From the NCBI GenBank assembly GCA_947453825.1, contig CANGHN010000006.1, positions 22,648 through 86,647 on the forward strand: DNA of 64,000 bases, written 5' to 3'. The notes beneath the pieces are model-generated. The model had not been told where the DNA came from. It saw only the letters and a list, made by a program, of their open reading frames with translations, and did no database searches. Shown piece by piece: positions 55,551 to 58,661 of this stretch. Made by a program: the position numbers and the translations under genes. The number at the start of each line of letters is the position of its first letter. The first letter of the stretch is position 1. The stretch is from Betaproteobacteria bacterium (lineage in GTDB: Bacteria > Pseudomonadota > Gammaproteobacteria > Burkholderiales > Burkholderiaceae).

Positions 55551-56270
55551 TTGACGCGTATCTTAGCCATCGACACCTCAACAGCTTGGTGTTCGGTAGC
55601 TTTATCTTTAGGCGAAAAAGAGCCTGTTCTTCGACATGAATTGGTGTCGGCTGGCGCTAGCCAACTTGTTTTACCTTGGGTTCAATCACTATTGACACAG
55701 GCTCATCTGCCTCTTCAAGTACTCGATGCAATTGCAGTAGGTATCGGTCCAGGTGCATTTACTGGGGTACGTCTTGGGGTGGCCGTTGTACAAGGCTTAG
55801 CAATTTCATATGATTTGCCGATATTGCCTGTAGCGAGCGTCGATGCAATTGCCGCTCAATTGGTTCAAATGCCTACATTTCAACCGGCCCATGTAAAACA
55901 TTTTGTCGTAGCAATTGATGCTCGAATGGATGAGGTGTACTGGGCTAAGTATGAAGCGAATCCTATTCAATCTGCATTGCCTGTGCGCCTTGGTGAGATA
56001 AATGTATCAAAACCTGAAGGCGTTAATCTGCAAGGCATTCAATTGATCGCTGGTAGTGCTATTCCTATTCATGGCAAGCGATTGCTTGCTAGCGTTTCTT
56101 CGCCCATTGACATGGTTGAAGAAATCGAACTTTCAGCATTAGGTCTATTGCTTTGTGCCAAAGAAATGTATGCCAAGGGCATGCAATGTAAGGTGAATGA
56201 GTTAGAACCGCTCTATGTCCGCAACAAAGTGGCGCTGACTACCGTTGAACGTCAAGAGGCATTCAAGTAA
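55551..56270 (+). CDS. tsaB: tRNA threonylcarbamoyladenosine biosynthesis protein TsaB
   Basis: ILAIDTSTAWCSVAL, GIGPGAFTGVRLGVAVVQGLA; TTG start. Confidence 0.95.
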   Translation: MTRILAIDTSTAWCSVALSLGEKEPVLRHELVSAGASQLVLPWVQSLLTQAHLPLQVLDAIAVGIGPGAFTGVRLGVAVVQGLAISYDLPILPVASVDAIAAQLVQMPTFQPAHVKHFVVAIDARMDEVYWAKYEANPIQSALPVRLGEINVSKPEGVNLQGIQLIAGSAIPIHGKRLLASVSSPIDMVEEIELSALGLLLCAKEMYAKGMQCKVNELEPLYVRNKVALTTVERQEAFK

Positions 56271-56800
56271 TGGCCGAACCAATTCAGGCGAACTCAGTTG
56301 CTGAGCTCTCATTCTTGCCCATGCAAATAGCTGACTTGGACGCTGTCTTACAAATTGAATCTGAATCCCATATACATCCCTGGACTAGAGGTAATTTCAC
56401 AGATTCTTTGAGCGCAGGTCACTGGGCTTACTGTATTCGTCCACAAGTAGACCAAGCAATCGAAGGGTCGTATTTAGATCCCGCGATACTCTGGGCTTAT
56501 TGTATTTTGTATCCCGCCGTTGATGAGTTGCATCTATTGAATATTACGGTGGCAGCAAAATTACGTAAGCTAGGGCTAGGCTCTAGGATGATGTCGGTGA
56601 TTGAAGGTGTTGCAGCTGCGCAAAAAATGCCCAGAATTATTTTAGAGGTGAGACCCTCCAATTTAGCCGCTCTCTCCTTGTACCAAAATTTAGCCTATGA
56701 GCAGATTGGGGTTCGTAAAAACTACTATCCAGCCGATTCTCAATCCGGTATTCGGGAGGATGCTATTGTGATGGCCAAATCGATTAAGCTAGAGTCATGA
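56270..56800 (+). CDS. rimI: ribosomal-protein-alanine N-acetyltransferase
   Basis: LHLLNITVAAKLRKLGLGSRMM, LEVRPSNLAALSLYQNLAYEQIGVRKNYYP; TAATG overlap with tsaB. Confidence 0.94.
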   Translation: MAEPIQANSVAELSFLPMQIADLDAVLQIESESHIHPWTRGNFTDSLSAGHWAYCIRPQVDQAIEGSYLDPAILWAYCILYPAVDELHLLNITVAAKLRKLGLGSRMMSVIEGVAAAQKMPRIILEVRPSNLAALSLYQNLAYEQIGVRKNYYPADSQSGIREDAIVMAKSIKLES

Positions 56801-57330
56801 GTAATACACATTCACATTTTCTTAAAGAGATGGGCATCACTGAGTGGACCCATAAAGACGCCACACAAAAAATGCCCCCTGCACAGCTTGCTGATGCCAA
56901 ATTACCCGATGCATCGACTCAGGTCCCAATGCAAGATAAGGTCTCTTTGGGAAATTGGTGGTTTTTTGGGGTACCACCACAAGGTGACGCTCAAATATTG
57001 TTTCAAAACATGACTCGTGTCTTGGGCCTTGATTCACAAGAGTGGTCTTGGAAAAAACCAACAGATCCATTAAGCCAGCTAAGGGCCCCTGATAATGGAC
57101 TACCAGTAGTGGCGTTTGCTTTTGGTGGGTCAGTGGCGCAAAAAATTACGGGTGAAAAAGACCCGTTGCCGCAGTTACGTGAAACAATTTTGGCTTTGAA
57201 TGCTGGCAGTGATGAGGATATTCCGGTGGTTGCATCATTTGATTTAGCCCATATTCTCTCTAAACCTAAAGACAAGTCACTTCTTTGGCAAGATTTATTG
57301 TTGGCTAAATCAGTACTTCAAAGTATTTAA
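56797..57330 (+). CDS. hypothetical protein, degenerate uracil-DNA-glycosylase-fold-like
   Basis: GNWWFFGVPPQGDAQILFQNMTRVLGLDSQ ... PVVAFAFGGSVAQKITGEKDPLPQLR ... IPVVASFDLAHILSKPKDKSLLWQDLLLAKSVL resembles the UDG family 4/5 layout; ATGA coupling to rimI. Confidence 0.6.
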   Translation: MSNTHSHFLKEMGITEWTHKDATQKMPPAQLADAKLPDASTQVPMQDKVSLGNWWFFGVPPQGDAQILFQNMTRVLGLDSQEWSWKKPTDPLSQLRAPDNGLPVVAFAFGGSVAQKITGEKDPLPQLRETILALNAGSDEDIPVVASFDLAHILSKPKDKSLLWQDLLLAKSVLQSI

Positions 57331-57341
57331 GTAAACCGCAA

Positions 57342-58661
57342 TTAATGCTTGTGCTCTCCGATGAGATGCATGGAGTCATATTCTGCTTGGTTTCTGGCAT
57401 GACGTTTAATCACAAGCCACATGATTAAACTCACTACTAAACCAAAGCCAATGATGACAAACTGAACTGGAATGTCTAGCCAAATTAATAGGGAATAAAT
57501 CAAGAGCATCATCAAGACAGAAATATTTTCGTTAAAGTTTTGGACGGCAATGGAGTGGCCAGCTGACATCAAAACGTGTCCACGGTGCTGCAATAAGGCA
57601 TTCATGGGCACCACAAAATATCCGGCTAGCCATCCAACCAAAATCAGTAATGCATAGGCCGGCAGTAAATTGAGCGAGATCTCTAATTTACCTATAGTCA
57701 TTAAGGTTGTATTTGGCAGCATGTCTGAGTTATAGACTGCCATGACGCAGACTACTAGACCCATGGCGATGCCATAAGGAAGCACATTAAGGGATTTGCG
57801 CAGAGGCACACGCCACGCGGCCCAGACGGCTCCACCAGCAACGCCAACTGCTGATATGGCCTGCAAAATAGCTCCTTGTGAGAGGGTCATATGCAGCGCC
57901 ACTTGAGCCCACTTGATCACAATAAATTGTAAGGTGGCGCCAGCACCCCAAAAGAGAGTGGTCACTGCTAAGGAAATTTGACCTAAACGATCATTCCACA
58001 GAGTTTTAAAACAAACAGAAAAATCTTTAATCAATTCAATCGGATTCGTTTTTTGAGAGACATAACGTGCACCGGTATCGGGTATTTTGAGGTTAATGAG
58101 CGCCGCAACAACATAAATCATCATGATGATCAAAATGGCGGATTCGGCTGGAGTATCGATCCCTGTATCTAATGCAGGCATGTCTAAGGCAAGCAGACTA
58201 CTAGAAACAGTGCCACTAATTAATATGCCGCCCAATACAGTACCTAAAATGATGGAGCCCACTGTGAGACCTTCGATCCAACCATTTGCTGCTACCAACT
58301 TTTCAGGGGGTAGTAATTCGGTCAGAATGCCGTACTTAGCTGGGGAATAAGCAGCAGCTCCAAGACCGACTATTGCATACGAGACCAGAGGGTGACCACC
58401 AAGGAGCATGGCAATACAGCCAATGAATTTGATCGTATTTGTAATGAACATGACATTCCCTTTGGGTCGGGAATCAGCAAAGGCGCCGACAAAGGCGGCC
58501 AGTAGAACATAAGACAATACGAAGAATAATTTGAGTAAAGGAGTCATCCAGGCAGGAGCGCTAAGCTGGACCAGAAGGGCGATTGCTGCAATCAACAGGG
58601 CGTTATCAGCAAGCGACGAAAAAAATTGCGCCGCCATAATGATGTAAAAACTTCGGTTCAT
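57342..58661 (-). CDS. lplT: lysophospholipid transporter LplT-like MFS protein
   Basis: FYIIMAAQFFSSLADNALLIAAIALL, LLPPEKLVAANGWIEGLTVGSIILGTVLGG. Confidence 0.92.
   Translation of the reverse strand: MNRSFYIIMAAQFFSSLADNALLIAAIALLVQLSAPAWMTPLLKLFFVLSYVLLAAFVGAFADSRPKGNVMFITNTIKFIGCIAMLLGGHPLVSYAIVGLGAAAYSPAKYGILTELLPPEKLVAANGWIEGLTVGSIILGTVLGGILISGTVSSSLLALDMPALDTGIDTPAESAILIIMMIYVVAALINLKIPDTGARYVSQKTNPIELIKDFSVCFKTLWNDRLGQISLAVTTLFWGAGATLQFIVIKWAQVALHMTLSQGAILQAISAVGVAGGAVWAAWRVPLRKSLNVLPYGIAMGLVVCVMAVYNSDMLPNTTLMTIGKLEISLNLLPAYALLILVGWLAGYFVVPMNALLQHRGHVLMSAGHSIAVQNFNENISVLMMLLIYSLLIWLDIPVQFVIIGFGLVVSLIMWLVIKRHARNQAEYDSMHLIGEHKH

Follow-up and report, generated by a model that had tools for sequence, protein, structure and literature searches.

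A degenerate family 4 uracil-DNA glycosylase coupled to rimI as the candidate psi subunit of DNA polymerase III in Polynucleobacter

The psi subunit (HolD) of DNA polymerase III is said to resemble a mismatch-specific uracil-DNA glycosylase (UDG). In gammaproteobacteria, its gene occupies the middle position of the order leuA-X-rimI, and in Escherichia coli, holD overlaps rimI. E. coli psi binds domain III of the three tau subunits through its N-terminus (PMC3290774). According to a 2012 review of the replisome, chi (HolC) is found in alpha-, beta-, and gammaproteobacteria and psi only in gammaproteobacteria, and the review asks whether psi is truly absent elsewhere or has diverged past detection (PMC3290774). 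The psi of pseudomonads, characterised in PMC3197488, is cited as having needed biochemistry to be found (Jarvis et al. 2005, ref. 84 in PMC3290774).

The window analysed here, the whole stretch of 64,000 nucleotides, comes from an assembly of 1.87 Mb that is 88% complete and that we assign to Polynucleobacter by its locus, size, and homologues. It contains a gene for a 177-aa protein directly after rimI, with the following features (window positions):

55551-56270, plus strand: tsaB, the upstream gene of the conserved locus (TIGR03725, 156.8 bits)
56270-56800, plus strand: rimI, ribosomal protein S18-alanine N-acetyltransferase (TIGR01575, 88.4 bits, cut-off 86.4)
56797-56800, plus strand: ATGA, in which the rimI stop codon and the candidate holD start codon (ATG) overlap, translational coupling (from the sequence)
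56797-57330, plus strand: candidate holD, psi subunit of DNA polymerase III, a degenerate UDG family 4 (UDG4) protein of 177 aa (open reading frame, profile, synteny, fold)
56806-56859, plus strand: putative psi clamp-loader-binding peptide, residues about 4-21, core L9-K-E-M-G-I-T-E-W17 (PF03603 and PRK06100 matches, conservation)
56860-56949, plus strand: linker, residues 22-51, unconserved and predicted to be disordered (pLDDT about 50, lowest conservation)
56950-57327, plus strand: degenerate UDG4 core domain, residues 52-177 (core-only hhalign against UDG4, AlphaFold2, Foldseek)
56968-56982, plus strand: GVPPQ, residues 58-62, where UDG4 has the active-site motif GEAPG (alignment)
57241-57246, plus strand: D149-L150, in place of His-Pro in the UDG4 HPxYLL motif (alignment)
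57342-58661, minus strand: lplT-like MFS transporter, convergent and downstream (PF07690; neighbour kept in sister genera)

An earlier note on this DNA had described the reading frame and its ATGA overlap with rimI, and had pointed to the coupling of rimI and holD in E. coli; the sequence bears out the frame and its overlap. The start codon of tsaB appears to be TTG. Candidate holD was detected in 36 of the 37 genomes searched in the genus Polynucleobacter, the sole exception being 83% complete and in 480 contigs, and dN/dS was 0.10 for the one measurable close pair. This distribution and ratio indicate a gene under selection.

The key feature of the protein, absent from the earlier note, is an N-terminal psi peptide (FLKEMGITEW, residues 8-21). 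Residues 4-22 match PF03603 positions 3-21 (E=0.01), and the N-terminus matches PRK06100 positions 1-21 (E=0.027). Two sub-threshold matches from the curated library tile the protein, psi at the N-terminus and TIGR00758 (UDG family 4) at residues 103-174 (E=0.007). The protein falls under the curated cut-offs of both families, scoring 16.5 bits against PF03603, for which the cut-off is 22.2; that cut-off is a marker of annotation confidence and no biological trait. Among 29 congeneric sequences, L9, M12, G13, I14, and W17 are invariant or nearly so, and the mean share of the commonest residue is 0.84 in psi-motif columns compared to 0.28 in the linker. The PDB holds the psi peptide alone in two entries, whose psi chains (3gli_O and 9oyg_J) are 27 and 30 residues long.

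A class-wide PF03603 search at a loose threshold matched the N-termini of many ORFs of 220-300 aa. Reading these ORFs revealed intact-looking UDG4s adjoining rimI, which start with YLxxMGIxxW or LxEMGLxPxWRLR. A scan of named genomes yielded 80 UDG4 loci in beta- and gammaproteobacteria, among them Thiobacillus, Nitrosomonas, Gallionella, Burkholderia, Paraburkholderia, Cupriavidus, Ralstonia, Pandoraea, Bordetella, Achromobacter, Thauera, Woeseiaceae, and others, with rimI adjoining the UDG4 gene in 78 of the 80. The order tsaB-rimI-UDG4-lplT is kept in the sister genera Cupriavidus, Ralstonia, Burkholderia, and Pandoraea, and also in Bordetella. As the Polynucleobacter gene order is that of its sister genera, candidate holD sits exactly at the position of their UDG4. 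A GEAPG-type motif was present in all 80 named loci and HPxYL in 79. The UDG4 of locus L070 passes both Pfam gathering cut-offs, with 118.5 bits for UDG and, at the N-terminus, 23.4 bits for psi, such that intact UDG4 motifs and the psi peptide coexist in one protein. An ATGA overlap similar to that of candidate holD and rimI was seen at locus L033.

We used an HMM built solely from the N-termini of eight true HolD proteins to search 8346 ORFs of other loci. At E<0.01 it returned 41 matches: 39 fell on the best UDG/psi ORF of the locus concerned, and two on further short ORFs (at L079 and L088) whose sequences look like psi N-termini. Relaxing the threshold to a domain E<1 raised the total to 89, of which 85 were the best UDG/psi ORF of the locus; the four others, too, have sequences like psi or UDG4-psi N-termini. 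The HMM matched 0 of 11 UDGs from other loci. Because the beta members have one residue more (MGLxPxW vs MGIxxW), most of them escape this gamma-type HMM; those in the psi-peptide set were identified by motif and by reading the sequences. A strict psi motif was found in 49 of the 80 named UDG4 loci and 24 of 30 Burkholderiales loci, where shuffling predicts 0.05 and 0.07, and none of the 11 control UDGs at other sites has it. Most named loci without the strict motif are near-misses on reading; counting these in, a post hoc judgement, brings the total to nearly all 80. The motif is short, and a few rimI-linked members (L212, L099, L109) lack it or carry a changed form.

Alignment with intact UDG4-psi proteins revealed that the core of candidate HolD has lost the residues of the UDG4 active site. 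GVPPQ stands where UDG4 has GEAPG, the EDxQGxPFVGxAG stretch that follows GEAPG is deleted, all Fe-S cysteines are gone, and D149-L150 replaces His-Pro, as the earlier note had held when it described a missing active-site loop, Fe-S cysteines, and histidine motif. Its assignment of the scaffold to UDG family 4/5 stands as to the UDG likeness, but the family is 4 rather than 4/5: a profile of the Polynucleobacter family matches rimI-linked UDG4s with an hhalign probability of 99.5% (E 2.6e-23). When the core alone was compared to the UDG4 core, this profile reached 99.2% with a score of 120, while 30 column-shuffled controls scored at most 22. The Polynucleobacter profile also matches the HolD profile (98.3%), and its matches to PDB sequences were limited to weak ones to Type-4 UDGs (E 0.05). 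Candidate HolD descends from UDG4 but is not an active one, and is best classed with psi, in function as well as in descent. Two other matches were set aside: a FecR-named PDB entry, weak and the sole phmmer match, was put down to chance, and DUF7039 (E 0.009) was under its cut-off and unsupported by relatives.

The same relation was detected from the side of psi. With the peptide removed, a HolD profile matched the UDG4 core at 97.9% (score 81, shuffled controls at most 16), and short betaproteobacterial forms treated likewise matched it at 96.9%. Five conventional HolD cores combined as a profile reached 93.7% with a score of 48.8 (controls at most 14.0). The E. coli HolD core alone gave 1.3% against the UDG4 core, without significance; only multi-HolD profiles were significant. 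The congeneric protein L030 matches UDG4 (E 1.8e-8) as well as the psi core (E 4.6e-4), and L067, from a leuA-X-rimI locus, has a psi match over its length and a UDG match at its C-terminus. On their sequences, these two proteins appear to be intermediates that bridge UDG4 and psi.

To predict the fold, we supplied AlphaFold2 with an alignment of 48 UDG4-psi relatives and zero HolD sequences. The model had a pLDDT of 81.8 and a pTM of 0.67, with most of the core above 90 and a disordered linker. A single-sequence model (pLDDT 38.5) was discarded as useless. In the modelling and Foldseek search that the earlier note had proposed, the top 35 PDB matches were all UDG4 or UdgX, a result to which the UDG4-only alignment contributes by pulling the model toward the UDG fold. 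E. coli psi chains, 1em8_B and 3sxu_B among the matches, followed at ranks 36, 38, and 39; 1em8_B had an E-value of 4e-3, a probability of 1.00, and a TM-score of 0.60 by psi length. Since the alignment held no psi sequence, the match of the model to psi was not built in. Beyond UDG4/UdgX and E. coli psi, Foldseek found no PDB match of comparable probability for this model. Among viral folds (BFVD), the matches were to UDGs and DNA polymerases of phages, which agrees with a UDG fold, and none was closer. That several phage DNA polymerases match a UDG-fold model is another link between this fold and replication machines.

Variation among the rimI-linked proteins takes several forms. The third Fe-S cysteine is kept in 60 of the 80 named loci, and in a sizeable minority of betaproteobacterial UDG4-psi proteins (L033, L093, and others), KCRPP has become KSRPP, a change that may point to a modified cluster or to lower activity. 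Other members are partly degenerate (L098, L099, L114, L115) or short (L094, L097, L100, L103, L105, L106, L107), and these degenerate families would appear to represent separate stages of the same decay as candidate HolD. In three Burkholderiales genomes, tsaB and rimI form a single fused ORF, followed by a degenerate psi gene (L114, 482-2652; L100, 751-2007; L103, 1456-2847), and at L108 (2038-3204), a TnpB/transposase-like ORF sits between rimI and the UDG4-psi gene. The alphaproteobacterial UDG4 loci L217-L245 have a conserved N-terminal extension (FYLREIGVQTP..., LAYLEQCGVDALTGD...). Its likeness to the psi peptide is faint and lacks the Trp, with HMM scores that are not significant. We know of no psi in alphaproteobacteria, where chi is present.

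The chi subunit is encoded in the source genome and in 53 of 57 related genomes. The earlier note had held that a clear holD elsewhere would speak against psi; a PF03603 search of the source genome, at the 88% completeness of the assembly, detected no other. An intact Ung is also encoded there, and in 5/5 Polynucleobacter genomes tested. With phylogeny handled by family collapsing only, Ung was kept by 8 of the 12 degenerate-psi families compared to 5 of the 33 with intact UDG4-psi (Fisher p=0.0017). The pattern fits a situation in which intact UDG4-psi may be a main cellular uracil glycosylase and its catalysis dispensable where Ung exists.

We conclude that candidate holD is very probably the psi gene of Polynucleobacter, evolved from a rimI-linked UDG4 whose core has become a non-catalytic scaffold. 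The evidence consists of gene position, the peptide, homology and fold of the core, loss of catalytic residues, the presence of chi, and the lack of any other detectable holD; the protein is identified as psi because it is UDG4-derived and retains the psi clamp-loader peptide. The earlier note had offered psi and a UDG-derived non-catalytic protein as alternatives, and our results support both together. Binding to tau and chi is predicted. In the mechanism we propose, the psi peptide, at residues about 4-21, would bind the three DnaX (tau) subunits at their collar (domain III), and the flexible linker would connect it to the UDG-fold core. That core, without catalytic loop, Fe-S cluster, or His-Pro motif, would now serve as a scaffold holding chi (HolC). 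As chi would in turn bind SSB, a core that holds chi could tether SSB to the clamp loader.

Other accounts of the protein would have to explain the same observations. Its core is clearly derived from UDG4, as would be expected of a decayed UDG4 with a role outside the replisome, such as binding DNA or abasic sites, with a psi-like peptide that is coincidental or serves another partner. We consider this improbable: outside the core, conservation is highest in the peptide and the linker varies freely, the peptide is common to true HolD and absent from UDGs elsewhere, and independently degenerate members in several families keep it while catalysis is lost. Retention of the UDG fold could point to a working glycosylase, or another uracil-DNA enzyme, with an unusual active site. 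The GEAPG loop, the next 11-13 residues, all Fe-S cysteines, and His-Pro are missing, however, the genome has an intact Ung, and Ung is commoner with degenerate psi than with intact UDG4-psi, as described above, which together leave this the least credible of the alternatives.

The insignificant match of the E. coli HolD core on its own is what one would expect if E. coli-type psi were unrelated to UDG4, the rimI-linked UDG4s had borrowed the psi peptide, and candidate HolD were a UDG4-derived replacement of psi. Such convergence is highly unlikely, though marginally easier to entertain than a working enzyme, given the score of 48.8 for five conventional HolD cores against controls of at most 14.0, the dual psi and UDG matches of L067, and the locus and fold that psi and UDG4 have in common.

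Most betaproteobacteria and many gammaproteobacteria still encode an intact-looking UDG4 with a psi peptide, so the ancestor was probably a replisome-tethered glycosylase. On the best reading, such an ancestral UDG-psi lost catalysis several times independently, Polynucleobacter psi being one case, and E. coli HolD and the Polynucleobacter protein are its separate non-catalytic descendants. The broader model, which we hold with less assurance than the identity of candidate holD but still think likely, is that the ancestral form of psi, still common in beta- and many gammaproteobacteria, is an active UDG4 anchored on the replisome by its psi peptide, coupling uracil removal to lagging-strand synthesis, with E. 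coli HolD and candidate HolD as separate non-catalytic remnants. Less certainly, the presumably active glycosylase of intact relatives would scan the DNA of the fork from its tether on the clamp loader. The alphaproteobacterial UDG4s (YLREIGV...) may be psi there too, a suggestion without statistical support.

If correct, these findings most likely put a name to the long-missing psi of betaproteobacteria. They would also give psi an evolutionary origin in a DNA-repair glycosylase, predict a replisome-tethered uracil glycosylase in Burkholderia, Ralstonia, Nitrosomonas, and others, and change the annotation of many rimI-linked 'uracil-DNA glycosylase' genes. Our literature search, with subscription journals outside its scope, found no published link between UDG4 and psi, so priority for this link is not proven.

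Among known systems, HolD (PF03603; E. coli b4372, 1em8_B, 3sxu_B) resembles the Polynucleobacter protein in its N-terminal peptide, rimI linkage, fold (TM 0.60), size class, and the presence of chi in the genome. Unlike E. coli-type HolD, candidate HolD has a core that is recognisably derived from UDG4, scores under the PF03603 cut-off, and is encoded after rimI (tsaB-rimI-holD) rather than before it. The cryptic psi of pseudomonads, found only by biochemistry, has likewise diverged but retains conserved residues at the N-terminus and a chi-binding core; the Polynucleobacter family, by comparison, is betaproteobacterial, and PMC3290774 and PMC3197488 draw no UDG4 link for pseudomonad psi. With UDG4 itself (TIGR00758; Thermus thermophilus 1ui0, Sulfolobus tokodaii 4zby), candidate HolD has in common the core fold and the C-terminal motif region (PKDKSLLWQDLLLAK), but it lacks the Fe-S cysteines, GEAPG loop, and His-Pro and carries the psi peptide. 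Its likeness to the rimI-linked UDG4s of beta- and gammaproteobacteria (L033, L070, L136-L215) extends to orthologous position, psi peptide, linker, and UDG core, whereas those proteins keep an intact-looking active site.
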